Shown here one piece after another: positions 6,379-45,546 of a stretch of DNA of 46,767 nt. A program made the position numbers and the translations under genes. Under the pieces are notes generated by a model. The model saw only the letters and a list, made by a program, of their open reading frames with translations, made no database searches and had not been told where the DNA came from. Positions within the stretch are counted from its first letter, which is position 1. Every line of letters starts with the position of its first letter. This DNA is from a virus. Location: positions 1-46,767 of IMG/VR virus record IMGVR_UViG_3300045141_000250. One strand, written 5' to 3'.

Positions 6379-6813
6379 CTACCCGGCTTCCGGCCCATCC
6401 AGTTCCTCCATCAAGCGGTCTGCCGGCTCGAGCCACCTGAGCGTGATGGTCCGCCCTGCAGCCTTGTCCTTCAGTTCCAGGGTCGCCGACCCGCTCGCCT
6501 CGTGACCGAATCCCCTTCTCCTTGCCGCCCCGGTGCGCAGGAACTCCTTGGCCGCATAGAAGCGGTTCTGGAAACTCCCCTCGTCCCGCAAGCCCTCGAA
6601 CAGCACCCCCACCGCCTCGTCGACCGCGCCCTCGTACACCTCGTCGACCGCCCCACATAATCTCGGGCTCATGGCGACGAATTTCCGCAACCGCCGCCGC
6701 TCGACCCCAAGCTTCTTGGCGACCTTGATAATGCTGCCGTCATGCTCGGCCAGCAGTTCCTCAATCCTGTCCTCATTAAGAGGGGCTTCGAAAATAATGA
6801 CCTCAGCCGTCAT
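6379..6813 (-). CDS. small-terminase-like HTH protein
   Basis: This 144-residue protein has an N-terminal helix-turn-helix (about residues 16-45: IEELLAEHDGSIIKVAKKLG then ERRRLRKFV). A helical region and the motif NRFYAAKEFLRTGAARRRGFG follow, an arrangement seen in terminase small subunits and related phage HTH proteins. Small terminases recognise the packaging site and hand DNA to TerL. A shorter paralogue is encoded at 10871-11158 with the same order of motifs. It lies on the opposite strand from terL about 700 bp away, so assignment as the true TerS is likely but not proven. It is last in the operon starting at 7732. Confidence 0.65.
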   Translation of the reverse strand: MTAEVIIFEAPLNEDRIEELLAEHDGSIIKVAKKLGVERRRLRKFVAMSPRLCGAVDEVYEGAVDEAVGVLFEGLRDEGSFQNRFYAAKEFLRTGAARRRGFGHEASGSATLELKDKAAGRTITLRWLEPADRLMEELDGPEAG

Positions 6814-6818
6814 TTCCG

Positions 6819-7286
6819 CTATACTCCACCCGCGGGGGCCGAGGCCTCCACCTCGCGCGCTTCAGGCCTTCCTTCGTCGGTTTCCCCTGAAGCCGCCCCC
6901 GCAGCCTCCGAAGAACCAGCCGACCAAGCCTTCAGCCCGCCCCACCGCGGCCGATCCGTCACCTCGTCAACAACCCGTAGCCGAAGCGTCTCAATCGCCC
7001 CAACCAACGCAAAATGATCACGCGACGTCCAGCCAGTGTTGACCTCGCCTTCAACAGTCACATAAGCGATCCCAAACGCCGCAACCCGCCCAGCCCGCGC
7101 CTCAACAACCATCTCCTCAGCCAACGCTATCCCGTCCTTGAGAAAAGACCCTAACCACCGAACACGCTCCAAGGAAGCCGTCGAAGCCGCTTCCAACGCC
7201 CCAACCTTCTCCTCAACCCGCCTCAGCCGCTCATCAAAACTCCCCTGCGCCCGCCGCGCCCAGTCCCGGAACTCAGATTCCTGCAT
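6819..7286 (-). CDS. hypothetical coiled-coil protein
   Basis: A 155-residue protein with no recognised family. Residues ~1-60 form a probable coiled coil (FDERLRRVEEKVGALEAAS). A central segment with strand-like character (GRVAAFGIAYVTVEGEVNTGW) and an acidic, Ala/Gly-rich tail follow. It starts at the ATG at 7286 behind AAGGGA. It sits between the 7328-7732 gene and the small-terminase-like gene in the same direction, so it is probably co-expressed with them. Confidence 0.6.
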   Translation of the reverse strand: MQESEFRDWARRAQGSFDERLRRVEEKVGALEAASTASLERVRWLGSFLKDGIALAEEMVVEARAGRVAAFGIAYVTVEGEVNTGWTSRDHFALVGAIETLRLRVVDEVTDRPRWGGLKAWSAGSSEAAGAASGETDEGRPEAREVEASAPAGGV

Positions 7287-9912: not shown

Positions 9913-9944
9913 CCCTGAGAGGCCCACAGAGCGGCCTTTGCCCC

Positions 9945-9965
9945 GAGGTGGACCAAAGTCACCTC
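9945..9965 (+). promoter_or_regulatory. hairpin upstream of the capsid-mimic gene
   Basis: GAGGTG-gaccaaagt-CACCTC, a perfect 6-bp inverted repeat 48 bp before the ATG at 10014. It is further from the start than the array leaders, so it may be unrelated to them. Confidence 0.35.
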
Positions 9966-10013
9966 AAATCGCCCGAAGGCCGCCCACGGGCCTCCTACGG
10001 GCGTTGGTGAGCC

Positions 10014-10253
10014 ATGACCTTCACCGCTTGCAAATCGCGCTCGACTGCCCGACGCCGCTATCCGGGCGCCGCCCATATCGTTAAGGTGGACGGCGGCTAT
10101 ATGTGCTTCACTTCGACGACGGCGTATTTGTCGGCGTGCGCCAACGACGTGCGCCTTTTTGATTCGCCCGCTGCCTCAGCGTTGCGCCGCCGCAACGTAA
10201 AAAGCCGCCTCTTTGACTGGCGGACCGAGTTCCCGCAGAAGCGCGAGCCATGA
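10014..10253 (+). CDS. small protein carrying a copy of the capsid N-terminal segment
   Basis: This 79-residue protein has two parts. Residues ~20-46 (VKVDGGYMCFTSTTAYLSA) resemble short phage hypothetical proteins. Residues 49-72 match residues 30-53 of this phage's major capsid protein (43085-44095) without gaps, 17 of 24 identical: SALRRRNVKSRLFDW here, SAIRRRNVKNRIFDW in the capsid. The similarity is visible in the DNA too. No further capsid sequence follows, so this is a peptide-sized copy and not a degraded full gene. It ends in an ATGA overlap with the HTH gene. Function is unknown; a decoy, an assembly inhibitor acting on competing phages, or a fragment left by recombination are the options. 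Confidence 0.75.
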   Translation: MTFTACKSRSTARRRYPGAAHIVKVDGGYMCFTSTTAYLSACANDVRLFDSPAASALRRRNVKSRLFDWRTEFPQKREP

Positions 10254-10504
10254 CCGCCGATGAACTGCGACAGGCCCGCAGCCAACTCGGCGTCTCAGGC
10301 GCAGAGTTCGCCCGCGCCTTCGATGTCTCAGAACGCACCTTGCGCTCATGGGAGGGCGCAATCCATAACAAACGCCTGATCCCCGTCCCACGCACAGTCG
10401 CAATCCTGACCAAGCTCGCGCTTAAAAATCCCTCAATCCGTCGCGAACTCGGGCTTACGAAAGCCAAAAGTGCCACGCCCCAGGAACCAAACGCCCAAGC
10501 CTAG
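10250..10504 (+). CDS. HTH transcriptional regulator
   Basis: This 84-residue protein has an N-terminal XRE/MqsA-like helix-turn-helix at residues ~4-55 (LRQARSQLGVSGAEFARAFD then SERTLRSWEG), with a helical C-terminal region. It is coupled to the capsid-mimic gene by ATGA and overlaps the zinc-ribbon gene by 35 nt. It probably regulates this cassette or a host/phage promoter; the target is not evident. Confidence 0.8.
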   Translation: MTADELRQARSQLGVSGAEFARAFDVSERTLRSWEGAIHNKRLIPVPRTVAILTKLALKNPSIRRELGLTKAKSATPQEPNAQA

Positions 10505-10892
10505 CCGCTTAAGCCTGCCAACCCTGACCATCTGGAGCCTGCGCAAGGCCGGGATTATCAATCCGTCCATGGATAGCGCCGAAGTCGAAGTCGGCGGCCT
10601 CAGACGCAAGGTCGGCCTCTGGCACATGCCTTTCTGGAACAAAGGCTCATGGTCCTACTTCCTCTGCCCTCACTGCGGCCGCACATGCCAGAAATTGCGC
10701 CTCTACGACGGCCGCGTCACCTGCCGGCAATGCGACGGACTCCCCCGTGACCGCGGCAAAGACATCGACAGCATCCGTCAGAAGCTCGCCACGCCAAGGC
10801 ACAATGCAAGCTCGCTTGAAACCTCGCTCAGACGCGCCATAATCGCCCAACGTCGGGAGAAACTCAAAAGATGGCCGCCCCCCAGGACCTAG
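10470..10892 (+). CDS. zinc-ribbon protein
   Basis: This 140-residue basic protein has a treble-clef/zinc-ribbon motif, CPHCG (about residue 67) paired with CRQCDG (about residue 86), separated by TCQKLRLYDGRVT. Small phage proteins of this type are frequent in alphaproteobacterial prophages and probably bind nucleic acid. The start overlaps the HTH gene by 35 nt. The C-terminus is strongly basic. Confidence 0.7.
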   Translation: MPRPRNQTPKPSRLSLPTLTIWSLRKAGIINPSMDSAEVEVGGLRRKVGLWHMPFWNKGSWSYFLCPHCGRTCQKLRLYDGRVTCRQCDGLPRDRGKDIDSIRQKLATPRHNASSLETSLRRAIIAQRREKLKRWPPPRT

Positions 10893-11158
10893 ATCCCGAA
10901 CTGATCGCCGAGGCGCTCACTAAGGCCGAAGGCTCCGTCTGGAAGGCCGCCAAGACGCTGGGCGTCAGGACCGGCGAATTGCGCCGCTTCTGCCTCAAAG
11001 ACCAACGCCTCATGGACGAGGCCCTCGAGGTCAATGAGCTCGCCCTCGACAAAGCCGAAGCCCAGGTGTTCAGAGCGCTGCGAACCGGCCCGCTGTCAAA
11101 CCGCCTGCAGGCCGCTGCCTTTATCGTCAGGAGCCGGGGAAGGCGACGACGCTCGTAA
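10871..11158 (+). CDS. second small-terminase-like HTH protein, short
   Basis: This 95-residue protein parallels the 6379-6813 protein: GSVWKAAKTLGV then GELRRFC (HTH), then a helical part and SNRLQAAAFIVRSRGRRRRS. It stops right after this motif, whereas the paralogue continues for about 40 residues, so it could be truncated or a minimal form. It overlaps the zinc-ribbon gene by 22 nt and the convergent minus-strand gene by 63 nt. It may be a terminase-like DNA-recognition subunit or a competitor of one. Confidence 0.65.
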   Translation: MAAPQDLDPELIAEALTKAEGSVWKAAKTLGVRTGELRRFCLKDQRLMDEALEVNELALDKAEAQVFRALRTGPLSNRLQAAAFIVRSRGRRRRS

Positions 11159-11314: not shown

Positions 11315-11886
11315 CAGGGCACCGCAATCGCATTGGAAGGCGGCGCCGCCGTCGAGCCAGTTGCGTTCGTGGCCGTCACCACCGCCGTAATCTGCTTGCC
11401 CCCGGTGTCAGCGGAAACCAGCGTGTAGGACGCCGCGGTGGCGCCCGAAATAACAACCCCGTTGCGATACCAGGCATAGGCGTATGAAGTGGGCGTTCCG
11501 GCCCAGTTGCCCTGCGTCACGCTGCACACCGTCCCCACGACCGGCGGCGAGGCGTTGGCCGAGGCATAGGGCACGTCGATGTTGCCGGGAGGCGAAAGCA
11601 CCCCAATCACCCCGTCAATCGCCGCAATCATCGTCGCCGCCGAGAGATTGCCAGCCTTGCCGATGTTGACCAAGTTGCAGAGGTCGCGGGTCAGGCGCGA
11701 CTGGCCCGGCGCGGAGTCGCTCAAGAGGCCAGCCGCCGGCGTCTGTATCGTCCGGTCGTGGGTCGTCACGTCAGACGCCAGCGCCGTCGACACCGCCTGC
11801 ATCTCAGCAGCCAAGTTGGCGTTGGCATAATGGATTTTGGCCAAAAGGACGACTTCGCCTTGGAAGTCTGGATAGCGCATCGACAT
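11314..11886 (-). CDS. Ig-like domain structural protein
   Basis: This 190-residue protein has a helical N-terminal ~105 residues and a C-terminal Ig-like beta-sandwich of about 80 residues (GTVCSVTQGNWAGTPTSYAYAWYRNG ending TNATGSTAAPPSN). The Ig part is closely related to the Ig-like repeats of the 886-residue tail protein at 37208-39868 (GTWTNSPTSYQYAW). Such domains decorate phage capsids and tails and promote weak binding to surfaces. It sits in an accessory minus-strand operon far from the tail genes, so it may be an optional virion decoration. Confidence 0.7.
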   Translation of the reverse strand: MSMRYPDFQGEVVLLAKIHYANANLAAEMQAVSTALASDVTTHDRTIQTPAAGLLSDSAPGQSRLTRDLCNLVNIGKAGNLSAATMIAAIDGVIGVLSPPGNIDVPYASANASPPVVGTVCSVTQGNWAGTPTSYAYAWYRNGVVISGATAASYTLVSADTGGKQITAVVTATNATGSTAAPPSNAIAVP

Positions 11887-11888
11887 TT

Positions 11889-12644
11889 TCAGTACCCCAA
11901 CGGTCTCTGCGGCGGATAAGGAACTGGGACCGACCCATACCCATTCGGCGGCTGATTACCCCCCAGCAAGGCCAGAAGACCAGACGGATTGAGCCGCGGC
12001 GTATCCGGCCCGTAAGGCGTCGGGCCAGCCGAGGCGATTTGGCCGCCGGGAGTCGCAGCCGACACCGGCTGCGCATTCGCTGCAGGAGCGTTGGGATTGA
12101 CCCCAGGCTGCTGGCCGCGGTTGAAAAGCCCGGCAAGATTGAGCGCTGACATCTTCGGCGGCCCGCCACGCGCCTGGCCCCCGCCCTCTGCTGGCGCATT
12201 GGGCCGGTCAATTGGGACGAAGCGATCGTTGGGCTGGTAATAGCCGAGATTCGCAGCCCCAGCCCTGCGCTTCATGGGAGGGGCCGCCGTAGCGCCAAGC
12301 GAGGCTAATGGACCTGCAGGCGCAGCATCTGCCGGCCTCGGCGTCGCGCTCGGCGAGCCAGGAGGCGTTGGCATCCCAGTGGGCGTGGAGCTGTCTGGCC
12401 AGTTGAACGCAGGCGGCGTCCGGGCATAGTTCGTGCTGTCCGGGTAAGCGCCTATGCCAATCGGATTACCATACCTGTCCCGGCTCAGTATCGTCCCAGC
12501 CGGCGAAGACGGCGTTGCCCCGGGCAGTTGAAACGGAGCGCCGCCCGTTGGCGACCCGCCTGTGGGATCAGCCCCGCCGCTCGGGTTCGCCCAGTTGCCG
12601 CCAAGCGACTGCAGCCAAGCCCAGAGATCGTCAGACCCAGCCAT
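11889..12644 (-). CDS. Pro/Gly/Ala-rich hypothetical protein
   Basis: This 251-residue protein is mostly low complexity (Pro, Gly, Ala, Ser) with few charged residues. Only short segments look structured, such as DDLWAWLQSLGGNW at the start. Similar composition occurs in the internal virion proteins at 26855-28890. It sits two nt upstream of the Ig-like gene and shares one base with the gene before it. A virion-associated role is inferred from composition and neighbours only. Confidence 0.6.
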   Translation of the reverse strand: MAGSDDLWAWLQSLGGNWANPSGGADPTGGSPTGGAPFQLPGATPSSPAGTILSRDRYGNPIGIGAYPDSTNYARTPPAFNWPDSSTPTGMPTPPGSPSATPRPADAAPAGPLASLGATAAPPMKRRAGAANLGYYQPNDRFVPIDRPNAPAEGGGQARGGPPKMSALNLAGLFNRGQQPGVNPNAPAANAQPVSAATPGGQIASAGPTPYGPDTPRLNPSGLLALLGGNQPPNGYGSVPVPYPPQRPLGY

Positions 12645-16675: not shown

Positions 16676-16980
16676 AGCTCACGGAAGACGACGCCGCCGT
16701 CATCAAAGGCATGCTCGCCCGCGGCGATAAGCAGCAATGGATCGTCGCGTGGTTCGGCGGCGACTTCAATCCGGGTCGCGTCGCTGAGATCAACACGGGA
16801 GCCAAGTTCGCCGACGTGAAGGCGGCCGGACGGGAAAAACTGCCTCCAATCGGGCCTTACGTTTCGGGGCGCTCAGCGCACCAGGCGTTGGTCTATCTCG
16901 GGCCAATCAAGGCCGCCGTCGACCGCGCCCTCAAAGCCCTCACGGTCTTGGACGATGAAGAGAACCACAATGGCAAATGA
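16672..16980 (+). CDS. conserved phage early protein with HTH-like start
   Basis: This 102-residue protein has an N-terminal ~40 residues (DDAAVIKGMLARGDKQQWIVAWFGGDFNPGRVAEINTG) with the look of a homeodomain-like HTH often found in rhizobial phages and genomic islands. The rest is helical. It overlaps the methyltransferase start by 11 nt. DNA binding is likely; the target is unknown. Confidence 0.65.
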   Translation: MKLTEDDAAVIKGMLARGDKQQWIVAWFGGDFNPGRVAEINTGAKFADVKAAGREKLPPIGPYVSGRSAHQALVYLGPIKAAVDRALKALTVLDDEENHNGK

Positions 16981-18004
16981 AATCAGTTTGGTTCGTTATG
17001 AGGCGGCGCGCCAGGCGCTCGCAGAGGCTCAGCGGATCGATGAAGTTAAAGACATTCGCGACAAGATGGTCGCGCTCAGCGCCTACGCGAGGCAAGCGAA
17101 AGACGCCGAGCTCATCGGCTATGCGACCGAAATCAGGATGCGAGCCGAACGGCGGCTGGGCCAAATGCTGGTCGATCAAAAGGCGTCGATCGGTCTGAAT
17201 AAAGGCGCCGCTGGTTCACGTGTCATCGGTTCCAAGAGGGAACCAGTGATGGATGATCGTCCGAAGCTCGCTTCTGTCGGCATCGACAAAAAGCTTTCGT
17301 CACGCGCGCAGCGGACAGCCGCCGTCCCTGACAAGGATTTCGAGGAGCGGTTGCTGGACCTTAAAGCGTCCGTCATCTCGGCCGCTGAGAGCACAGCGGA
17401 AGAACGTCGCATAGCCAAGATGGAGCGCCGCATCGAGCGGGAAGCAGAGTTGGGCGCAACTCTGCAGGCCCTGCCAAACAAGCATTTTGGCGTTGTTTAC
17501 GCTGACCCAGAGTGGCGCTTCGAGGTTTGGTCCCGCGAGACCGGCTTAGATCGCGCCGCTGATAACCACTATCCGACGAGCGCTACTAACATCATCGCAA
17601 GTCGCGATGTGGCGACGATCGCCGCCAACGATTGTGTACTGTTCCTGTGGGCGACTGCTCCAATGCTACCGCAAGCCATCGAAGTGATGAAGGCCTGGGG
17701 CTTTGAGTACAAGACTCATTTCGTCTGGGTGAAAGACAGGATCGGCACCGGCTACTGGAATCGCAATAAGCATGAGTTGCTGCTGGTGGGGACTACGGGC
17801 GATGTCCCGGCGCCAGCGATGGGCACCCAGTTTCCGAGCGCCATCGAGGCTCCGGTCGGACGCCACTCCGAGAAGCCAGACTTCGCTTACGAAATTATCG
17901 AATCCTATTTCCCGAATCTGCCGAAGATCGAACTCAATGCGCGCCAGCGCCGTCCCGGATGGGACACTTGGGGATTGGAAGCTCCTGCGGATGCGACCCC
18001 ATGA
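16970..18004 (+). CDS. MT-A70-family DNA adenine methyltransferase
   Basis: This 344-residue protein has an N-terminal ~150-residue helical domain and a C-terminal MT-A70 methyltransferase domain from about residue 165. The catalytic motif appears as ADPEW in place of the usual DPPW, followed by the RFEVWSRETGLDRAADNHYPT segment typical of this phage subgroup. SAM-binding and core motifs are present (CVLFLWATAPMLPQAIEVM, FVWVKDRIGTGYWNRNKHE). It would add N6-methyladenine to phage DNA, probably protecting it from host restriction. It starts at 16970 behind GAAGAGAA and is coupled by ATGA to the ERF gene. Confidence 0.85.
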   Translation: MANEISLVRYEAARQALAEAQRIDEVKDIRDKMVALSAYARQAKDAELIGYATEIRMRAERRLGQMLVDQKASIGLNKGAAGSRVIGSKREPVMDDRPKLASVGIDKKLSSRAQRTAAVPDKDFEERLLDLKASVISAAESTAEERRIAKMERRIEREAELGATLQALPNKHFGVVYADPEWRFEVWSRETGLDRAADNHYPTSATNIIASRDVATIAANDCVLFLWATAPMLPQAIEVMKAWGFEYKTHFVWVKDRIGTGYWNRNKHELLLVGTTGDVPAPAMGTQFPSAIEAPVGRHSEKPDFAYEIIESYFPNLPKIELNARQRRPGWDTWGLEAPADATP

Positions 18005-20870: not shown

Positions 20871-21262
20871 CCCGCGCCCTCTTGGTCCTTCGTCGCGACG
20901 CCGACCGCTCAAAGGCGGTCAACTGGATCACGTCCGCCCCGGCAGGAACCCGCGTTGAGTTCAAGGCGCCCCGCAGAACCCTCGACCAAAATTCGCGGTT
21001 CTGGGCAATGTTGACGGACATCTCCCGGCAGAAAGAACACATGGGCCGTCGCTATACGCCCGACCAATGGAAGGTGCTGATGCTGCACGCCTGCGGCCGA
21101 GAGATCCAGTTCCTTCCGGCGCTTGATGGCTCAACCTTCATTCCTTGGGGCCAATCCTCGTCCGATCTCTCGAAAGAAGAAATGTCGGAGCTGATCGATT
21201 TCATGGGCGCCTGGGGCGCTGAGCACGGCGTCACATTCCATGACCGCGAGGCGGCGGCATGA
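20867..21262 (+). CDS. ninB: NinB-family recombination protein
   Basis: This 131-residue protein matches the NinB/Orf family: VEFKAPRRTLDQNSRFWAML, then YTPDQWKVLMLHACGREI, then FIPWGQSSSDLSKEEMSELIDFMGAWGAEHGV. Lambda NinB is a single-strand DNA-binding recombination mediator that helps load the annealing protein. Here it completes a set with erf and the YqaJ nuclease. It is the usual length of the family, with ATGA overlaps on both sides. Confidence 0.9.
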   Translation: MTRALLVLRRDADRSKAVNWITSAPAGTRVEFKAPRRTLDQNSRFWAMLTDISRQKEHMGRRYTPDQWKVLMLHACGREIQFLPALDGSTFIPWGQSSSDLSKEEMSELIDFMGAWGAEHGVTFHDREAAA

Positions 21263-21642
21263 GAAAGATCGCTCCCTGGATCGGAACGACCGACGACGCC
21301 AAAATCCCATTGCAGGTACAGCTGCGCGTCTTGGTGAGACAGCATGGACGATGCGCCGTCACCGGCCACAAGTTCACGCCGGGGGACGCGAAGCGTCTGG
21401 ACCATATCGTTCCCCTCGCCGATGGCGGCCTGCATGGCGAGACGAACTTGCAGTGGATTCTCGACGTCGAGCACAAGGCCAAGACCAAGGCGGAAGCCGA
21501 AGTGCGCGCCAGGGTTCGGAGCATCGCCGCCAAGCACGCGGGGCTAGAGCGCCGGCGCAAGAGCAACTGGGGCCGGAAAGAGCCGAAGCCGCCGCTTGCG
21601 GTGGCCGCGGGCAAGTCGGAGATAGCGCGGAGGTACCAGTAA
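21259..21642 (+). CDS. HNH endonuclease (short)
   Basis: This 127-residue protein has an HNH core: QHGRCAVTGHKF, then LDHIVPLADGGLHGETNLQWI and a final H in VEHKAK. The motif has a conserved D-H and N in the expected order. The C-terminal half is basic. Small phage HNH enzymes often nick DNA for packaging or recombination. Its stop overlaps the next ATG (TAATG). Confidence 0.8.
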   Translation: MRKIAPWIGTTDDAKIPLQVQLRVLVRQHGRCAVTGHKFTPGDAKRLDHIVPLADGGLHGETNLQWILDVEHKAKTKAEAEVRARVRSIAAKHAGLERRRKSNWGRKEPKPPLAVAAGKSEIARRYQ

Positions 21643-22163
21643 TGGGTCGCCCGCTTATCGATCTCGCCGGACAACGGTTCGGCCGCTTAGTGGTGGTGAG
21701 ACTTTCGCACTCCGGCCCCCGCAAGCGCGCTTATTTCCTATGCCGATGTGATTGCGGCAACGAACACCTCGCGCGCAGCGATGCATTGCGCAGGGATAGC
21801 ACAAGAAGCTGCGGCTGCCTTCAAGCCGAAGAGGCGGCGCGCGGAACTCACGGAGAGGCCGGAGGTGGTCGCAAACGGCTCAAGGCCAGCGTCGAATACA
21901 GAACTTGGTCGACGATGATCCAGCGCTGTGAAAATCCGAGAGCTACCGATTACGAACGATACGGCGGCCGCGGCATTAAAATTTGCCAACGCTGGCGCGA
22001 ATCCTTCGAGGCTTTTCTCACCGACATGGGCCGAAGGCCTGCAGATAAGCGCAGCGTCGATAGGATCAACAACGATGGCAACTATGAGCCTGGCAACTGC
22101 CGATGGGCGACGCCTATCGAGCAAAGGCGCAATCGCTCTGACAGTCGTCATGCTCATGTATGA
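21642..22163 (+). CDS. HNH/AP2-type homing-endonuclease-like protein
   Basis: This 173-residue protein opens with a cysteine module (QRFGRLVVVR, FLCRCDCGNE, SCGCLQAE). A C-terminal module characteristic of phage homing-like proteins follows: WSTMIQRCENPRATDYERYGGRGI, then ICQRWRESFEAFLTDMG and SVDRINNDGNYEPGNCRWAT. Such proteins bind long DNA sites. The cysteine module is related to the two at the start of the 41365-42189 protein. It could be a mobile-intron-free homing enzyme or a phage HNH partner. Confidence 0.75.
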   Translation: MGRPLIDLAGQRFGRLVVVRLSHSGPRKRAYFLCRCDCGNEHLARSDALRRDSTRSCGCLQAEEAARGTHGEAGGGRKRLKASVEYRTWSTMIQRCENPRATDYERYGGRGIKICQRWRESFEAFLTDMGRRPADKRSVDRINNDGNYEPGNCRWATPIEQRRNRSDSRHAHV

Positions 22164-32316: not shown

Positions 32317-33884
32317 TAGCGGTCGCCTCGTTGCACGGCGTCCACAAGATGAGCGCCGACGGTAAATGGCAGGACCGGCGGCCCATCGACCTCGATCTTG
32401 AGCCGGATGTCTCGGCCAGTGGTGCGGAAGTCAACGTAGCCATCGTCACGGACCGACCTCGGCGTTGTCTGCAGCTCAGGCGCCCCCGTCGAGCGGCTGT
32501 TGCGGTAGAACAACGAATATTTCAGGTTTGTAATATCGCCTTCGATGTCCGGCAGCATCTGCTTAACGGTGATCAGCTGCGCGCCCCAGGTGAGGTTAAG
32601 GTCGAACGTCTCCGCGAACGGCAAGTCCGCATTGACGTAGACATTGCCGAGCTCATGCTCGAAAGCGACCAGGCCATCGGCCATGATCGTCTGTGCGGTG
32701 AAGCTCGCCGTGATGCCGGCGGAACGGCTCATCCTTCCCTGACTGAACCAGCCTTCTTTATAATTATACACAAAACACCGCGTGTTGTAGGGCTCGCCAT
32801 CCTGCGGGAAGAACCACCAAAACTCGCTGAAATTGCCGACGTGGACCGCGCATGCCTGCTCGCGCACGTTGACGAGGTCGATGTCGTCGTCGACCCATGG
32901 GCGCACCTTGCATTGCAGTGGCGTCATCGTGGTGCCGTCGAACATGAACATCCCCTGCTGGCTCATCCACAGCGCCATCGCCGACGATACGATGACGCTC
33001 TCTGGCGACCACGGCGTGCAGTTGTTGCCAAGTTCGACGTAGTTGTAGACGTAGGGAATGCCAAGGAAGCTCGACAAGTACGCCTTATGAGCGGTCCAGA
33101 AGATGGTGCCGTTGCGGGTCGCCTTAGCCGTCACGATCGGCGAGGCCGGCTCGATATCGAGGAAGCCGGCCTGCGAGGTGACATTGCTGAAGTCCCAGGC
33201 GTGAAAATTCTCCTGGTCGCACCAGCCGAAACGCCGAAACGAACCGCCATCAGTCGTGCCGTCATTAACCATGCCGAAAATGACGACGAACCTCTCTTGG
33301 GTGACGACAAACAAGCGGCCCAAGGGCGCGAAGCCGGTACCGGTGTCCGTGCTCGTCACCTGGGTCATGGCAGCATCGGGGACGCCCGTGCCGCCGCCGA
33401 GCGGGTCCCATTGCAATAGCCGTCCATCCGGCGACGTCATGGCGAGAAGGATCTGGCCAAAATTGTCGAGGCTCCAGGCGTTCGGCAAGACGTCGATCGG
33501 GATGATCGTCACGTCCGTGCGCGGCGTGCCATAGTCCTCGGCCGAGTAATCTCCATCGCCGTATCCCCCGGTCGTCGGAAACGTCGGGCCAATCATGCCG
33601 TCGACGGGGGTGATCTCGACAAGCGTCCCGCCAGTGTCGACGTAGATATTCTGCTCGCAAAGATAGGCGATGCGGTGAACCCCGTTGAGGTCGTACCAAG
33701 AATGCACGGCGCGGCAGCGCGAGGCGAAGCCATAGCTGTATTGAGCCTGCCCGCCCACAGGACTCATTTGACCCTCGACCCACCGCATCAGGTTGCATTC
33801 AGCCCAGTTCGAAGACCGCATCTTTTTCGTTGCCGTAGCGACGACGCCGGGGGGTATTTCGAGCGGGCGGAATGGCGTGCTCAC
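32316..33884 (-). CDS. tail nozzle / DNA stabilisation protein
   Basis: This 522-residue, mostly beta-strand protein opens with FRPLEIPPGVVATATKKMRSSNWAECNLMRWVEGQMSPVGG and GVHRIAYLCEQNIYVDTGG. These match the conserved start of podovirus nozzle/stabilisation proteins (P22 gp10-like, SU10 nozzle), which form beta-propellers and close the channel below the adaptor. Length fits. A GTG start overlaps the upstream fibre stop (GTGA). Adaptor and portal genes in the same genome complete the tail set. Confidence 0.8.
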   Translation of the reverse strand: MSTPFRPLEIPPGVVATATKKMRSSNWAECNLMRWVEGQMSPVGGQAQYSYGFASRCRAVHSWYDLNGVHRIAYLCEQNIYVDTGGTLVEITPVDGMIGPTFPTTGGYGDGDYSAEDYGTPRTDVTIIPIDVLPNAWSLDNFGQILLAMTSPDGRLLQWDPLGGGTGVPDAAMTQVTSTDTGTGFAPLGRLFVVTQERFVVIFGMVNDGTTDGGSFRRFGWCDQENFHAWDFSNVTSQAGFLDIEPASPIVTAKATRNGTIFWTAHKAYLSSFLGIPYVYNYVELGNNCTPWSPESVIVSSAMALWMSQQGMFMFDGTTMTPLQCKVRPWVDDDIDLVNVREQACAVHVGNFSEFWWFFPQDGEPYNTRCFVYNYKEGWFSQGRMSRSAGITASFTAQTIMADGLVAFEHELGNVYVNADLPFAETFDLNLTWGAQLITVKQMLPDIEGDITNLKYSLFYRNSRSTGAPELQTTPRSVRDDGYVDFRTTGRDIRLKIEVDGPPVLPFTVGAHLVDAVQRGDR

Positions 33885-34885
33885 CTTGCCTCGAGCTCCT
33901 GCACGCGCGCCGCCAAAGTCTTCACGGCGTTCACCAGGGCATACACGAGCTCTGAAGCATCGAGGTCGCGCAGATCGTCAACCGCCTTGCCGTCAACATA
34001 CCCCGCTCGTTTGGTCACCATGCCCGGGAAAACAGCCTCGACGTCCTGCGCAACCAGGCCGACGAACGGCTTGCCCCGAACCCGCTCCAACTTTGACTTC
34101 TTGCCCGGTTCGGCGTCGTTGCCTTTAAAGCGGTAGACGACCGGCTCAAGTTTCATGATCTCGTCCAAGCCAAGGGCGTAGGGACGCTCGACGGTCTTGA
34201 TGCGGGCGTCGCTCGAATTGGCCCACGAGCCGCCGCCTGGCTTGTAGCCTTGGCCGGTGATGCCGAACGCCCCGCCCGCGTCCATCTCCGCGAGTTCGAC
34301 GCCCGCACCGATAAAGGCGATCGATCCAGAACAATTTATCGACCAACCCGAGGCGAATTGAAGAACGCTGTTGCCAAGAACCGTAGCGCTTCCGTTCACT
34401 AAATATTGGGCAGCGTTTGCTCCACCCGTCGCACCCATTGCGCCGCCGACGTTCAACGTCGTGCCGATTGTCACTGCGCCGCCGACGGCCAACCCGCCCG
34501 CGCCAATGATCACCTGGCCCGAGGCGCGATTGATTTCAAACGGATTGGAAAGAAACCCGCCCGCGTCACCGTAAGCCTGGATTAGGAAATTCGCCCCGGC
34601 GTTGCCGCCTGTTTCAGCTTCGCCGTCGCCAAGGAACATCCCCCAACGCATCGCGCCTGCTGCTTGACCATAGATTTGGTTGACCGCTGGCCCAGTAGGG
34701 GTGTTGAGAACGATCTCGTTCGGGGCCACAAGGACGGTGCTGATCCCCTCAATCGCCTCGGCAACCTCGAACATCGTGGTGTCGATGCCATCGAGGTCGT
34801 TGTTGAGTTCAACGCCCCAAGTGCTCGTGTCGCCGCCGACTTGAGGCTTGATCCAACCGAAGTTGGCCGTGAGCGTGCTAGCCAT
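33881..34885 (-). CDS. tail fibre with S74 intramolecular chaperone
   Basis: This 334-residue protein starts MASTLTANFGWIKPQVGGDTSTWG, a typical virion-attachment N-terminus shared with the 35069-36448 fibre. The middle is Gly/Ala-rich beta repeat. The C-terminal ~110 residues are a peptidase S74/endosialidase-type chaperone: SDARIKTVERPYALGLDEIMKLEPVVYRFKG, then FVGLVAQDVEAVFPGMV and a coiled coil (LVNAVKTLAARVQELEAR). It trimerises and self-cleaves to finish fibre folding. The start at 34885 replaces a longer unsupported frame. Confidence 0.85.
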   Translation of the reverse strand: MASTLTANFGWIKPQVGGDTSTWGVELNNDLDGIDTTMFEVAEAIEGISTVLVAPNEIVLNTPTGPAVNQIYGQAAGAMRWGMFLGDGEAETGGNAGANFLIQAYGDAGGFLSNPFEINRASGQVIIGAGGLAVGGAVTIGTTLNVGGAMGATGGANAAQYLVNGSATVLGNSVLQFASGWSINCSGSIAFIGAGVELAEMDAGGAFGITGQGYKPGGGSWANSSDARIKTVERPYALGLDEIMKLEPVVYRFKGNDAEPGKKSKLERVRGKPFVGLVAQDVEAVFPGMVTKRAGYVDGKAVDDLRDLDASELVYALVNAVKTLAARVQELEAR

Positions 34886-35066
34886 GCGATTCAGTCTCCG
34901 GCGGCGTATACGGCTTCGGTGTGTTGCCCGCCGCCAACCACTCTTGATAGGCGGCGTAATCCCGGTTTCTCGGACCGACTGGTATCCATGCCTGATCAAC
35001 GTCACGTAAGACGATCTTAGGATTGGCTGTCAGCGTGTAGGTTGAGACAATTTTAGGGAGCAGCAT
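34878..35066 (-). CDS. small tail-fibre-associated protein
   Basis: This 62-residue protein (MLLPKIVSTYTLTANPKIVLRDVD... ending YTPPETESHG) contains DYAAYQEWLAAGNTPKPYTPP, typical of small fibre-assembly or fibre-tip proteins in phages. It overlaps the S74 fibre start by eight bases and follows the 459-residue fibre by two. Chaperone function is inferred. Confidence 0.65.
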   Translation of the reverse strand: MLLPKIVSTYTLTANPKIVLRDVDQAWIPVGPRNRDYAAYQEWLAAGNTPKPYTPPETESHG

Positions 35067-35068
35067 CG

Positions 35069-36448
35069 CTAAATCTCCACTGAAGCAGTGAATATCACGT
35101 TTATGACTGCTTGGCCGGTCGCCGTGGCTGTTCCCTGACACCCAAAAGCAATTCCACTATCCGATAGCGTCTGAGAAGTAACGTTAGAGCTACCGTTCGA
35201 GTTCATCGTTAATGTCGCAACGTCAATCATTGGGGTATGCATTGCCGAGGCGGCAACATAACTCCCCGCCCCCGCGTTAAAGCCAGCGAGAATTTGACCG
35301 ACCATGTAATATGCCTGACATCTCCCATATCTTACGGCCAGCGGCTCGAACACAAACGGCGTGGCGATGCTGCCAAGCTCCAGCTTGACGCCGGTGAACG
35401 CCCACTTCGCGCCGCTGGTGTTGCTTAAGATCACCGAGCTGGTAGCGCGAGTAGCAGTCGTGGTGCTCTGCCATACGTTGGTCGTGGCAGTGTTGCTGGT
35501 CGAGCCAGAGCCAAGGTCGAAATCAACATACATAGCCGTGGCGTTGACCCAACTTGTATCGGTGTCGCCTGGAACGGTGATAACAATCCTTGTCCACGCA
35601 TTGGCGGTGGGTATAGAATAGGTAGTAACGTAAGATCGGAACGATGGCGAATTATTGTTGGTAACAGCTAAAGAAAACGTGCCGGTTACGCTAGAAATGA
35701 CCCAGAACGATATTGTTATCGATTGCGGGCTCACGCCTCCCCAACCGAGATCAGCATAAGAGTCACGCAAAATACCTTGTTGAATTACGTTGCCGTCCGC
35801 CGCCGCCGCCGCAACAGCGGTCAACGCCTGCACACCCTGACAATATTCAAAGCCCGCCGGCGGCGAATACGGGTAATTGATTCCCCAATTCCATTTGGTT
35901 ATCTTGGTGGAGTAGACCAGCCAGCGATCCAGCATCCACGCGGCAGCGACCGTGACGGCGTTACCAGAACCGGGCGTATATCCACGCTGATTGACGTACA
36001 TATCGCCGTTGTCGATGCGGTTGGGATTGGAGAAGACCGCACCCGACAAAGCCGCGCCAACAAAGGCGGTGGTGGCAAGCTTGGTCGTGCTGTCGCCCGG
36101 GGCTGGCGTCGAAGCGGTCGTCGGCACACCAGTGAACGCCGGCGACGCAATCGGAGCGCGCGTCGTGTCGGTCGGATGGATGTGATCGCTATGCGCGAAC
36201 GTCGTCGCGGAACCGGCAGCCGCCGTCCCGTCCATCGCTGGCGTGGTTGCCGAGAAGTTGGTCGCAACGCCATGGACGGTCGAATCGATGCCGTCGAGAT
36301 CGGCGTTGAGCTCGGTCCCCCAGGTGTTGAGGTCGCCGCCGATGGTTGGCTTCGTCCAGCCGTAATTGGCGGTCGGAGCCCCCCGAGGGTCTACAGCCGG
36401 GGAGGCGCGCAAGGATATGCGAGGCGGACGCACGGGCCCCTTAGCCAT
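35069..36448 (-). CDS. tail fibre / receptor-binding protein
   Basis: This 459-residue protein has the same head-proximal motif as the next fibre (TANYGWTKPTIGGDLNTWGTELNADLDGID). A DHIHPTDTTRAP segment (a common fibre repeat) follows, and a large C-terminal beta domain of ~280 residues resembling a carbohydrate-binding jelly roll (DNGDMYVNQRG...FSLAVTNNNSPSF...). Base composition here is less GC-rich than in neighbouring head genes, fitting exchange of receptor-binding modules between phages. It starts at ATG 36448, eight bases inside the upstream gene. Confidence 0.8.
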   Translation of the reverse strand: MAKGPVRPPRISLRASPAVDPRGAPTANYGWTKPTIGGDLNTWGTELNADLDGIDSTVHGVATNFSATTPAMDGTAAAGSATTFAHSDHIHPTDTTRAPIASPAFTGVPTTASTPAPGDSTTKLATTAFVGAALSGAVFSNPNRIDNGDMYVNQRGYTPGSGNAVTVAAAWMLDRWLVYSTKITKWNWGINYPYSPPAGFEYCQGVQALTAVAAAAADGNVIQQGILRDSYADLGWGGVSPQSITISFWVISSVTGTFSLAVTNNNSPSFRSYVTTYSIPTANAWTRIVITVPGDTDTSWVNATAMYVDFDLGSGSTSNTATTNVWQSTTTATRATSSVILSNTSGAKWAFTGVKLELGSIATPFVFEPLAVRYGRCQAYYMVGQILAGFNAGAGSYVAASAMHTPMIDVATLTMNSNGSSNVTSQTLSDSGIAFGCQGTATATGQAVINVIFTASVEI

Positions 36449-36821
36449 GACAAAGCTCCGCTTCTTCCCATTCGACTGCCGGACACGGCGGTGAAGGGCT
36501 CCACAATGGTCCAGAGGACAGCGTGGCGGCCATGACGACATTCAGGTTCATTTGACCGGCAAACTTCCTGGTGTCGCTCAGTGAGGCGCTATAGGTCACC
36601 TGAGGCCGTATGCCGCCGCTGACCTTGCGAACCAGATTGGTCAGGTTGGAACCGGCATAGGTGATTGACGGCCTTAGGTCGCCCTTAAGGTTCGCCTTGC
36701 CGGCTTCGGATATGGAACCGGCAAAGGTGACCGACGGCGCGAGGTTGCCCGCTAACGACCAAGTCGTTCCCTGGCCGTAGACACCTTGGCCGTAATAGCT
36801 TTGGCCATAGGCGCTCGCCAT
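36441..36821 (-). CDS. beta-repeat tail protein
   Basis: This 126-residue protein contains four tandem ~23-residue repeats (LAGNLAPSVTFAGS, LKGDLRPSITYAGS, VSGGIRPQVTYSAS, FAGQMNLNVVMAAT), each likely a beta hairpin. A Tyr/Gly/Gln-rich head (YGQSYYGQGVYGQG) precedes them. It is probably a small virion surface or fibre-linked protein. Confidence 0.65.
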   Translation of the reverse strand: MASAYGQSYYGQGVYGQGTTWSLAGNLAPSVTFAGSISEAGKANLKGDLRPSITYAGSNLTNLVRKVSGGIRPQVTYSASLSDTRKFAGQMNLNVVMAATLSSGPLWSPSPPCPAVEWEEAELCHG

Positions 36822-37207: not shown

Positions 37208-39868
37208 TTAGGGAACCCCGATTGCGGTCATGTACGTGCGAAGGCGGTTGTAGAGGGCGAGCTGGCCCGCGCTGCCAAGCGAAGCGCCGATGAAGGCGGC
37301 GCTGATGGTCGAGGTTGCGGTAAAGCCGCCCGCAGGTATGTCGCCAATCGCAAAATCAATATTCTCTAATGCAACAGACGGAGCCCCATCTGTATTTTTA
37401 AGAACAGCATCGAAGTACATTGGAACGGTACCCGGTCCTGTTCTATCTGCACTATACCAGCCATTCGTCGCTGGTGAAGGCGTCTCGCTTGTTCCATTGC
37501 TGGCGTTGATGCCGACATAATAATTACCATCAGAAAATCTTGGCAAAAGGGTTACTTGAGCGACCGATGCGCTTGTCCCAAGAAATATTCCACCTAAAGG
37601 CGCGTTGTACGCCCAAGCGCCAATGCTAGCGGAATTGAGTGTAAACTGTACGGTGGTTAAAGGCAGGAGGCCTGTGTCAAGCCCGCCAGCCGCAAACGCC
37701 GAGAACCCCTGATACGCCGTGAACGTCGCGCTCCCCGTCAGCGGATAACTCGCACTCACAAGATTCAGCCGCGCGTCGGTCGCATTCTGTTGCGCCAACA
37801 CATACAGCGCGTCGAGCTTCGCCCACACGCCGTCGCTGACCAGCCCGTCGATCAGGTTGGCGATGTTGGTCCCATTGCCCCCCTCGTTGCCGCCAACGGT
37901 GCGGGCGAGATAGGCGAGGGCTTGGGAGCTATGTCCGCCTGCGCCATCCCATGGGCTGAACCCCGCTGGCGGGGCGTACTTCTGGCTGGCGGCGGTGGGC
38001 TGGAGGGTCCAGACTTCGCCTGTGTTTTCCATCGTCAAAGCCGGGAATAAAGCTCCGACTGTCGCCGGAACAAAGGACACCATCGGCAGAGACCCGGTCG
38101 CTGGATTGCCGCTCGCCAGCCAAACATTGTTTTGCGCCAACCAAAAATTCCCAGCGGTGAAATCCACCGCTAGCGCCCACACGTCATTATTGGCGGGGAA
38201 AGCCGTCGTTGTCGCATTTGACGTAAATCCAGCGGAAATATTATTGCCGCCATAACCAATTGCGGCCGAATATGATGAGTTCCCCATTGCTAGCCCAGCG
38301 TTGGCGCTGGCGGACGCCAATCCAAAGAAATCATTTCCAGAGGTTTGAGTTGCCTTAAACTCTACATAGAGCTTGCCAGATGTTGCGCTGACCGTAGAGC
38401 GGAGGAATTGATTGGCGTTGACGCCAGCGGGAGCCGTCGCCGTCAGGCCGCCGTTGGTCAAAGTAAAGCCTTTGATGGCGGCGTCGCTGGCGGACCAGAC
38501 GGAGGTCGATGGCGTTACCGGGCCGCCGTCCCACGCTTGGAAGCCGGGTGGGGGGAGGTACGTCTGTTGCGCGGGCTGGGACCGGAGGGTCCAAGTTCCC
38601 GACGTAGAGTCATTAAGTGTAAGGCCGGGAAATAGAGCCCCTACTGTAGCAGGCGTGAATGTCGCTAACATCCCTGTGCCAGCCGTCGGATTACCGCTAT
38701 TTTCCCAAACATTGTTTACAGCGAACCAAACATTGCCAGCAGTAAAGTCTATAGCCACAGCCATAACGTCGCCAGCAACCGGAGCGTACGCAGTCGCATT
38801 AAATAATTCCGTAAACCCGGAAACAAGAGTTGCTCCTGATGACCAAAATCCAACTGAAAAAGAGGTACTGCCAAGATAAGACGCAAGAATAGCAACTGAC
38901 GTAGCGCCAGCAAACATCTCAGTGGACGCTGAGGTCGAAGTGGCAAATTCTATGTATAACTTTCCTGATGTTTTACTGATGGACCCGCGAATAGTTTGCC
39001 GCGTCGCCGTGGTTGACGCTACCGTCAGCCCGCCGTTGGTGAGCGTCATGCCATTGGCGGTTGCGTCGGCGGCGGACCAGACGGAGGTCGCGCCACCAGC
39101 CGCAATGGCCAGCGTGTTCGACGCCTGCGAGGCGCTGCCGCTGGAATTGGTCGCCGTCACCAGACACCCGACCGACGTCCCCCCATCTGCGCTGACGGTG
39201 ATGTACGTGGAAGAGGTCGCCCCCGAGATATTCGCTCCCCCACGCTGCCACTGATAGGTGAAGGTCGGCGAGTTCGTCCAAGTCCCGTTGGTTGTGGTCA
39301 AGGTCGAACCGACCGTCAGGGAGCCGCTGGCTACGGGAGCCGCCGTATTGGCGGGGACGCCCAAAATCGACAACGCATTCGACGCCGCCGATAGACCCGG
39401 CCCAATGGCGTTTATCGCCGTAACCGTACAGCTGATCGACCTCCCGGCGTCGCTCGCAACCACGACATAGGTCGAGGCGTTGCGTGGGCTGCCCGCGCCG
39501 CTCCAGGCGTATTGATAGCTGGTAGGCGAGTTCGTCCATGTTCCCGTAGTGCAGGAGAGGGTCGAGCCAACCGTCAGCGTCCCGCTCGCCACCGGAGCCA
39601 CGGTGTTAACGGGAGAGCCGGGAAGCACCCCGATCCCTTCGGTAAGGTAGCCGCCGATCCAGATCGGAGACGCGCCCCCAGTCGGCGTCCCGCCGTACCC
39701 CTTAACCCAAACCGGCGACGCGCCAGCCGCCGGCGTGCCGCCATACCCGGCAATCCAAGACTCCGTCGCGCCGGCAATTGCGCCGCCATACCCCACAATC
39801 CAGACCGGGGACGCGCCGCCAGTCGGCGTCCCGCCGTACCCCGCAATCCAGATTGGATTCGCGACCAC
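37208..39868 (-). CDS. large modular tail adhesin with W-GYGG repeats, Ig-like and SPRY-like domains
   Basis: This 886-residue protein has, in order: five tandem repeats of the form SPxW(I/V)xGYGGTPTGGA (residues ~5-80); two Ig-like domains (~85-255); two SPRY/concanavalin-like domains of ~190 residues (SVWSAADATANGMTLTNGG and SVWSASDAAIKGFTLTNGG); and a C-terminal beta domain (~680-886, TASYPLTGSATFTAYQGF). The N-terminal repeats probably give attachment or spacing, and the lectin-like domains bind host glycans. GTG start at 39868 overlaps the TAG of an upstream 18-codon frame. Confidence 0.75.
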   Translation of the reverse strand: MVANPIWIAGYGGTPTGGASPVWIVGYGGAIAGATESWIAGYGGTPAAGASPVWVKGYGGTPTGGASPIWIGGYLTEGIGVLPGSPVNTVAPVASGTLTVGSTLSCTTGTWTNSPTSYQYAWSGAGSPRNASTYVVVASDAGRSISCTVTAINAIGPGLSAASNALSILGVPANTAAPVASGSLTVGSTLTTTNGTWTNSPTFTYQWQRGGANISGATSSTYITVSADGGTSVGCLVTATNSSGSASQASNTLAIAAGGATSVWSAADATANGMTLTNGGLTVASTTATRQTIRGSISKTSGKLYIEFATSTSASTEMFAGATSVAILASYLGSTSFSVGFWSSGATLVSGFTELFNATAYAPVAGDVMAVAIDFTAGNVWFAVNNVWENSGNPTAGTGMLATFTPATVGALFPGLTLNDSTSGTWTLRSQPAQQTYLPPPGFQAWDGGPVTPSTSVWSASDAAIKGFTLTNGGLTATAPAGVNANQFLRSTVSATSGKLYVEFKATQTSGNDFFGLASASANAGLAMGNSSYSAAIGYGGNNISAGFTSNATTTAFPANNDVWALAVDFTAGNFWLAQNNVWLASGNPATGSLPMVSFVPATVGALFPALTMENTGEVWTLQPTAASQKYAPPAGFSPWDGAGGHSSQALAYLARTVGGNEGGNGTNIANLIDGLVSDGVWAKLDALYVLAQQNATDARLNLVSASYPLTGSATFTAYQGFSAFAAGGLDTGLLPLTTVQFTLNSASIGAWAYNAPLGGIFLGTSASVAQVTLLPRFSDGNYYVGINASNGTSETPSPATNGWYSADRTGPGTVPMYFDAVLKNTDGAPSVALENIDFAIGDIPAGGFTATSTISAAFIGASLGSAGQLALYNRLRTYMTAIGVP

Positions 39869-39924
39869 TATCTTGACCCCTGCGTAACAAACAGTAGGGC
39901 TGCAGCGAAGAGGAGACGCCTCAT
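39868..39924 (-). CDS. 18-residue hydrophobic leader-like ORF
   Basis: MRRLLFAAALLFVTQGSR, coupled at its start to the adaptor stop (ATGA) and at its stop to the adhesin start (TAGTG). It reads like the front part of a signal peptide. It may be a bridging micro-gene that keeps translational coupling, or the real N-terminus of the adhesin if a -1 frameshift occurs. Low certainty. Confidence 0.35.
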   Translation of the reverse strand: MRRLLFAAALLFVTQGSR

Positions 39925-40547
39925 CCGAAGGACCTCACTCTCGAGCGCGTGACCCGCGAGCCGCTCGCCTTCGACCTCAGATGGTCGGCGTTGAGCTTGG
40001 TAATTGTTTCGTCAGTCAGCTGCTTGTAAACAGCCGCCGTCGACTCCTCCCCAACCGCATGCAGCCCGGCCCGATATATGGCGGCGTTGAGATAGAGGCT
40101 CGGATATTTTGTGTAAATAAAGCTCTGAGTGTCATCAGCGAGCGCTGGCACTTCGCCATAATAGGCGATCTTGTACTGGACGCCGTTGATCGTGTCGGGG
40201 CTGCCCCCGAAGTAGATCTGGCGACCTTCGATTGTATAATACCCATAGCTCCAATTGTCGCGGAGGTTGAAGAACTCATCGCGCGCCTTGTAGCGGATCG
40301 GCAGAAAGGCATCCGCGCCATTGTCATTCTGGATCTTTACGAGATCCATTTGCAGCCAGTCGTCGGGCAGCGGCGCGCAGCGTGCGGTGATGAGCGCGCT
40401 ATCGTTCTGGATCATCCGGTCGACGCGCAAGTCCTGATTGAAAATCTGTTCAGCCTGACGAATGAACGATGTCACCAGCGCATCGGAGAAATCCTGCCGG
40501 TTCGTCCAGTCCATGATCTGCGCCTTCAAATCCGAGTAGTCGCTCAT
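39921..40547 (-). CDS. head-tail adaptor protein (SU10-like)
   Basis: This 208-residue protein opens MSDYSDLKAQIMDWTNRQDFSDALVTSFIRQAEQIFNQDLRVDRM, the helical opening typical of SU10-like podovirus adaptors. It continues with a beta part (LPDDWLQMDLVKIQN...). It would join the portal to the nozzle. ATG at 40547 follows GGGGGAAGCCGCA; the longer frame to 40565 is not needed. It overlaps both neighbours by four bases. Confidence 0.85.
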   Translation of the reverse strand: MSDYSDLKAQIMDWTNRQDFSDALVTSFIRQAEQIFNQDLRVDRMIQNDSALITARCAPLPDDWLQMDLVKIQNDNGADAFLPIRYKARDEFFNLRDNWSYGYYTIEGRQIYFGGSPDTINGVQYKIAYYGEVPALADDTQSFIYTKYPSLYLNAAIYRAGLHAVGEESTAAVYKQLTDETITKLNADHLRSKASGSRVTRSRVRSFG

Positions 40548-43084: not shown

Positions 43085-44095
43085 TCACGCCTTGATACCA
43101 TTGAACAAAATGTGGGCCGCTGCGTTCCTTTGCTCTAGACCAAACTCAACCACTACCATCCTGGTCTCCGCATCACCTACCCGCGCCATAAGATATTGCC
43201 TGAAAGCGCGGAAATAGGCGACGGCCGCATAGTCGGGATCGATCAGAAGCCCTACGTCCACCGGCACCCATCGGCTTGGGGCCACCTTAATACGTCCGAA
43301 ATCGGTAGCAATCACATCTATCGTGCTTACCACTTCATTCTTCCCAACGAGAACTTGCGTTGTGCTACGTCCGACGAACGTAGATATCGTCCTCTTTGGC
43401 CCCGGCGGGACGATCCACAGGCTTGGGCTGGCGCCATTGGTGTAGGCGTTCTGCATCGCCTGGCCGAGCATGGCTTCCGAGACCTGGATCTGGGAGCCGC
43501 CGGCGACTGCGGCGAAGGCGTCGGTTGCAGCGACGGGGAGGCCGGCGACGACGCCAGCGACCGCGCCGCCCGCGCCGGCTGCCTGGCCGGTTCGAGGCGT
43601 TGCGACCCGCCCGACCCAATGAGCGAAGCCTTCGGTGATGCGGGCGGTTGGCCCGGTGTCATTACCGTCGACGCGGGGCTGGCGGGAGCAGATCGCCGTT
43701 TCCATGTCGGACTTGAGCGCCTTGGAAGTGAGCGCCATTTGGTGGGCCATTTCGGACCCTTTACCCGCGGCGTCGGCTTCCTCTTGGGTTCCCGACACGG
43801 TGGCGTCACGCTCGGAGATTTGCGTGACGTTGTTTTGCCGGATGGTCGGGGTCGACAAGGCGTTGGTGAGCTGGAAGCCTTCGAACTGGGCGTTGTAGCC
43901 GGCTGTCGGGTAGGCAGGGGCTACGGTCGGCAGGTTCTCGGTCTGCCAGTCGAAGATCCTGTTCTTTACGTTGCGCCTTCGGATCGCCGACATGACCGGC
44001 GTGTCGAAGGGGTCGATGTTGTAGATTGCGTTGGATAGATCTTCACGATTTCCTGTCGCCTGATAGGTCGTGAAGGCATTGGTGACCTTTGCCAT
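43085..44095 (-). CDS. major capsid protein (SU10-like, HK97 fold)
   Basis: This 336-residue protein follows the scaffold gene by 15 bp. The N-terminal arm (residues 1-55, LSNAIYNIDPFDTPVMSAIRRRNVKNRIFDW) is the conserved start of the SU10-like major capsid family, and the rest fits the P- and A-domains of the HK97 fold (ERDATVSGTQEEADAAGKGSEMAHQM, IWIVPPGPKRTISTFVG-type stretch, VPVDVGLLIDPDYAAVAYFRAF). It forms the icosahedral shell with the scaffold. Residues 30-53 are repeated in the small protein at 10014-10253. Confidence 0.92.
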   Translation of the reverse strand: MAKVTNAFTTYQATGNREDLSNAIYNIDPFDTPVMSAIRRRNVKNRIFDWQTENLPTVAPAYPTAGYNAQFEGFQLTNALSTPTIRQNNVTQISERDATVSGTQEEADAAGKGSEMAHQMALTSKALKSDMETAICSRQPRVDGNDTGPTARITEGFAHWVGRVATPRTGQAAGAGGAVAGVVAGLPVAATDAFAAVAGGSQIQVSEAMLGQAMQNAYTNGASPSLWIVPPGPKRTISTFVGRSTTQVLVGKNEVVSTIDVIATDFGRIKVAPSRWVPVDVGLLIDPDYAAVAYFRAFRQYLMARVGDAETRMVVVEFGLEQRNAAAHILFNGIKA

Positions 44096-45292: not shown

Positions 45293-45546
45293 CAGACGCC
45301 GCCCCGGTTCTGGGCGCGCACGCCTGCGTTGTACTCATTGATCAGGGCTCTGAGCTGGCCGGCGATCTCGTCAATCACCTTGATCTGGGCGACCAGTTCG
45401 AGCTTCTTTTCGGTGGTGGCGGCGGTGGTGATAAGCGTGTTGACCAGGCGATCGCGCAGGCCCGTCCTGGCCGCCTCGAACGCCTTGCTTTCGAGGATGT
45501 CCTTCGCCTCGGTGGCGAGTTCCCGTTTGGCGGACAGGTCATTCAT
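45292..45546 (-). CDS. small conserved head-module protein, copy B
   Basis: This 84-residue protein is the counterpart of 1005-1256, keeping MNDLSAKREL and INEYNAGVRAQ but with a different middle (TGLRDRLVNTLITTAATTEKKLELVAQIK). It is directly coupled to portal copy B (ATGA), because the helix-hairpin-helix gene of the left copy is missing here. Confidence 0.7.
   Translation of the reverse strand: MNDLSAKRELATEAKDILESKAFEAARTGLRDRLVNTLITTAATTEKKLELVAQIKVIDEIAGQLRALINEYNAGVRAQNRGGV

Follow-up and report, generated by a model that had tools for sequence, protein, structure and literature searches.

In tailed phages, mosaic gene fusions arise by illegitimate recombination. The small gene P0001 described here resembles such fusions in that gene pieces are joined at a protein or domain boundary within a variable small-gene slot, but it differs from them by its donor, an essential and highly conserved major capsid gene from the same phage group. 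The capsid family concerned is SU10_MCP/DUF5309 (PF17236; PDB 7z45 and 9ny2), whose N-terminal region provided residues 49-73 of P0001. Unlike members of this family, P0001 holds only about 25 of some 330 residues, lacks the HK97 fold and displays changes at near-invariant positions.

Capsid pieces have also been described as triggers of host defence, namely the T4 Gol peptide with Lit and the capsid recognized by CapRel-SJ46 (PMC9712102). P0001 would share with these systems the relevance of a short stretch of capsid sequence beyond its role in the capsid. Yet, in Gol and CapRel the piece lies inside a real capsid protein and sets off defence, whereas P0001 stands as a fusion gene of its own for which no sensor is known, and the analogy to Gol and Lit is to be taken as a weak one. 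Since the capsid is the trigger in these systems, an unaltered free capsid peptide would work against the phage.

Capsid origin of the P0001 segment

The window analysed here is the whole stretch of 46,767 nucleotides of IMG/VR record IMGVR_UViG_3300045141_000250; its relevant features are collected in Table 1. P0001 is an intact gene with start-stop coupling to the HTH gene that follows, and its frame obtained the highest codon-usage score, by a modest margin. Its location in a regulatory/accessory cassette, as proposed in the initial annotation, was borne out. The protein itself had no counterpart in Pfam or PHROG, even at E=1 (PF17236 included), and its structural model gave no significant Foldseek match.

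Table 1. Features of the P0001 locus, of the major capsid gene (MCP) and of N-domain homologues (the latter in coordinates of their own records)
Feature	Position	Strand	Remarks
Leader	9922..10013	+	conserved in L086 and L087; in L087 the HTH gene follows directly (alignment)
Direct repeat GAGCCATGACC, copy 1	10009..10019	+	at P0001 start
P0001, 79-aa fusion ORF	10014..10253	+	ATG start; ATGA overlap of its stop with the start codon of the following gene
N-terminal small phage domain, residues 1-44	10014..10145	+	tail-less homologues; pLDDT 84-90; predicted beta-alpha-beta-beta-alpha
Junction stretch, residues 39-48	10128..10157	+	MCP match at L39 and S40 alone (codon table)
Capsid-derived segment, residues 49-73 (FDSPAASALRRRNVKSRLFDWRTEF)	10158..10232	+	genome match, ungapped alignment, capsid-segment comparison
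Direct repeat GAGCCATGACC, copy 2	10245..10255	+	at P0001 end and HTH gene start
HTH regulator gene	10250..10504	+	landmark of the P0001 slot; conserved in both L086 and L087
MCP, SU10_MCP/DUF5309 family	43085..44095	-	PF17236, E=5e-77; PDB relatives 9ny2 and 7z45
MCP residues 30-54, N-terminal region resembled by P0001	43934..44008	-	genome match and alignment
N-domain homologue L088	4005-4145		46 aa, without capsid tail
N-domain homologue L092	2001-2138		45 aa, without capsid tail
N-domain homologue L093	1054-1191		45 aa, without capsid tail
N-domain homologue L098	1501-1713		70 aa, with an unrelated tail

The gap-free alignment of P0001 residues 49-72 with MCP residues 30-53 (17 of 24 identical), on which the initial annotation was founded, is real. 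Apart from P0001 itself, the MCP was the sole match of P0001 in the genome (E=5e-10), and the pair emerged again from an all-against-all blastp of the ORFs of the window (E=4.9e-10). In a 2.3-Gb search, the segment also matched the capsid of an Ochrobactrum phage (E=3e-3). Among phages in culture, the closest to the present one is vB_OspP_OH. Judged on sequence, this homology is far above chance, and the capsid origin claimed for the segment was thus confirmed.

The likeness to the capsid stood, but its description as a near-exact copy did not. Three IMG/VR scans, with MCP or segment queries, provided 114 distinct capsid segments of the SU10_MCP/DUF5309 family, among which the best match to codons 49-73 was 58/75 for DNA and 20/25 for protein, both in other phages; over the three scans no closer donor was found. 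The nearest amino-acid match was the capsid of L003 (20/25), as compared with 17/25 for the MCP of the window, whose 82% DNA identity to P0001 was confined to 39 nt. Since DNA agreement was 58/75 at best and the own MCP reached 17/25, the segment is, on sequence grounds, an old or foreign piece of capsid gene and not a fresh copy. Duplication within the same genome was discarded as a recent direct source, the DNA being too diverged and the MCPs of other phages being nearer in amino acids.

P0001 displays S, A, A, S and R in place of capsid residues T32, V34, M35, N45 and Q51, which were conserved in 114/114, 109/114, 112/114, 114/114 and 114/114 segments, respectively. Such changes at capsid-fixed positions are expected after loss of capsid constraint. 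The RRRNVK-R-FDW-TE core was retained. The alignment displayed no clear capsid match in residues 41-48 or beyond residue 73, which places the beginning of the capsid part near residue 49 and the fusion point, approximately, within the junction stretch. An AlphaFold model of the MCP had a pLDDT of 30 and was unusable.

The initial annotation placed P0001 33 kb away from the MCP, which holds for contig coordinates but not for the real distance. Positions 1-2674 of the window repeat positions 44288-46767 at 83-90% identity, with duplicated portal and scaffold genes, and because of this repetition the assembly has probably passed around a circular or permuted genome and continued into that of a sister strain. 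On the actual map, where the contig ends overlap, the distance would be about 10 kb, a spacing also found in G003 (MCP at ~3.6 kb, HTH gene at ~14.3 kb). The annotated MCP may therefore belong to the sister strain and not be the exact partner of P0001. The same wrap-around effect was seen in another related genome, G086, a 44.4-kb contig (L182 and L232) with an MCP start at both ends.

Other resemblances were recorded within the window. Two adjoining genes of the structural region, at 35072-36541 (-) and 33884-35029 (-), have a 37-aa stretch in common (68% identity). A cassette protein (11317-11955, -) is ~40% identical over 103 aa to the largest of the structural-region proteins (37211-39934, -); the two may have a domain in common, or a further structural piece may have been transferred. 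Two small regulatory-type frames on opposite strands, at 10820-11155 (+) and 6382-6861 (-), are 39% identical over 90 aa. The window also encodes a DNA methyltransferase (16955-18004) and an HNH endonuclease (21240-22163).

The N-terminal domain and its gene slot

Homologues of residues 1-44 of P0001, with identities of ~40-56%, are encoded by other soil phages as small proteins (L088, L092, L093 and L098). Three of these end after the domain and L098 carries an unrelated tail, in contrast to the capsid tail of P0001; the latter was missing in all four clear homologues and also in one weak relative, L094. Fusion to an unrelated N-terminus, as initially proposed, was hence substantiated by the tail-less occurrence of this domain elsewhere. 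The homology covers residues 1-40, including the ARRRYP and KVDGGYMCF motifs, and twelve positions were invariant in the five proteins (M1, F3, A12, R13, P17, A19, I22, G27, G28, M30, C31 and F32). Three of the phages bearing N-domain homologues (G006, G050 and G051) also possess a capsid of the SU10_MCP/DUF5309 family.

The domain matched no family in Pfam, PHROG or PDB, and bacterial genomes searched with P0001 and with the domain yielded no homologue. An AlphaFold prediction for P0001, based on five sequences, displayed ordered residues 2-44 (pLDDT 84-90), as opposed to ~51-56 for the tail, whose arginine-rich residues 52-72 were predicted to be helical at low confidence. An insertion inside the domain, suggested by a mafft alignment that puts the family W over W69 of P0001, was also considered and rejected: the predicted domain ends at about residue 44, which makes a simple 3' fusion likelier. 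The N-terminal domain is most likely the working part of P0001. From its gene position one might guess at an early host-takeover or regulatory accessory role.

Among relatives that possess this cassette, L086 and L087 were the nearest, and they have both the leader and the HTH gene in common with the window. The content of the slot between them is variable, since it is empty in L087, harbours an unrelated 72-aa ORF in L086 (L086:4786-5004) and P0001 in the window. Further copies of the L086 ORF were not found in IMG/VR, and a residual likeness between its gene and the 3' end of P0001 (RTE..PQ) was dismissed as not significant. In the search for donor and breakpoint, where the best donor DNA remained the 58/75 match, P0001 proved to be flanked by the 11-bp direct repeat GAGCCATGACC, which has no other copies in the window. 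The pair may be a trace of P0001 insertion or merely a shared start-codon context.

A search with P0001 covered 108 related records, of which at least 20 have a length of 38 kb or more and many are fragments; the capsid segment occurred outside the MCP in none of the 108, each match being an MCP or a tail-less N-domain gene, in a database sample that is small and from which very near relatives may be missing. The segment was thus neither conserved in homologues nor recurrent with other N-termini.

History of the capsid tail

The explanation that we favour, and hold as a whole with moderate confidence, is that P0001 represents a small early/accessory protein of chimeric make-up, whose N-domain and capsid fragment were joined by illegitimate recombination and whose tail has no dedicated function. 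A compact domain of ~44 aa, located in the slot between the conserved leader and the HTH gene, would have gained at its 3' end ~20-25 codons from the N-terminal region of the major capsid gene of a related, unsampled phage through non-homologous recombination. In line with an illegitimate fusion, N-domain and MCP each occur alone in relatives, and no extended donor homology was observed at the junction. The tail would have been tolerated because the C-terminus of the domain is free and variable in relatives. It would then have drifted from capsid constraint, and no action on capsids is required. Tail-less homologues as the rule, together with absence of the segment from relatives, were among the cases in which the initial annotation itself would speak of a recombination scar. 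Since this is the situation encountered, a recombination product is favoured.

A codon model built on 89 capsid sequences, where the segment displayed an omega of 0.019, was used to place P0001. When change since the split from the sampled capsids was taken to be exclusively neutral, the fit was ~10 log units poorer than under constraint. Constraint throughout was, however, matched by a scenario in which the segment first evolved under capsid constraint in an unsampled donor and then drifted neutrally, in a model that is uniform across sites and probably underestimates post-capture change at invariant ones. Synonymous sites were near saturation with respect to every sampled capsid, and 18-20 of the 25 residues were retained. 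Conservative replacements exceeded the neutral simulation with p ~0.02 when all seven were counted and ~0.15 for the five likeliest to be post-capture. The seven amino-acid changes need a modest neutral distance, over which the 79-codon frame would stay open with a probability of ~0.3-0.4. These tests fit a weakly kept peptide as well as a drifting scar, and room must be left for selection on the tail.

A kept peptide could have been co-opted against capsids, its tail docking on MCP or scaffold and either poisoning the heads of competitors or delaying the phage's own assembly early on. The retained core, the mostly conservative replacements, the intact coupled gene and a synonymous divergence that is high relative to the amino-acid divergence are consistent with such a role, but the last point is equally accounted for by an unsampled donor. 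Moreover, the fusion occurred once in 108 related records, homologues do without the tail and five near-invariant capsid residues are replaced, so that we regard co-option as unlikely. The narrower proposal of an early small protein whose capsid peptide would bind MCP or scaffold and hinder head assembly of related competitors is somewhat less likely still; if true, P0001 would have arisen by domain fusion as a restriction factor that is carried by a phage and based on a capsid fragment. No precedent for a capsid-fragment inhibitor was found in the literature searched, and a capsid-binding or other capsid-directed role for P0001 is possible but unsupported. The tail might also serve P0001 itself and be kept for that reason, for instance as a basic helix that binds nucleic acid or stabilizes the protein. 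Its arginine-rich composition, its low-confidence helical prediction and the conservative changes would suit this proposal; the other homologues lack such a tail, and we give it the same small chance as co-option.

A decoy, in which the peptide would bind the sensor of a Lit- or CapRel-like host defence without triggering it, finds a basis in the known capsid-sensing systems (CapRel-SJ46, and the Gol peptide with Lit; PMC9712102). There, however, the capsid is the trigger, and a peptide made early in infection would activate the defence, save in an altered form. The fusion moreover did not recur among relatives, and we hold a decoy to be very improbable. To our knowledge, no sensor has been described for the SU10_MCP/DUF5309 capsid family. 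Equally improbable is an assembly artefact, in which capsid reads from a different phage of the metagenome would have been the source of the segment. The contig is indeed a strain composite whose ends overlap at 83-90% identity, but identical or near-identical capsid DNA was not found (58/75 at best), a stretch of less than read length would have had to be joined chimerically on both sides, and the change of residues fixed in 114/114 capsids indicates that it is not part of a working capsid gene.

Implications

The initial annotation had viewed P0001 as a dedicated capsid-peptide gene, acting as a blocker of competing phages, a decoy or a tuner of head assembly. With homologues devoid of the segment and none of the 108 records carrying it outside the MCP, this view was not sustained. 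Should the tail nevertheless act on capsids, which the present evidence does not show, P0001 would represent a rare prokaryotic equivalent of virus-derived capsid restriction factors. As it stands, P0001 provides a case of a non-structural phage gene that captured codons of a highly conserved structural gene, both parents of which are found separately in relatives.
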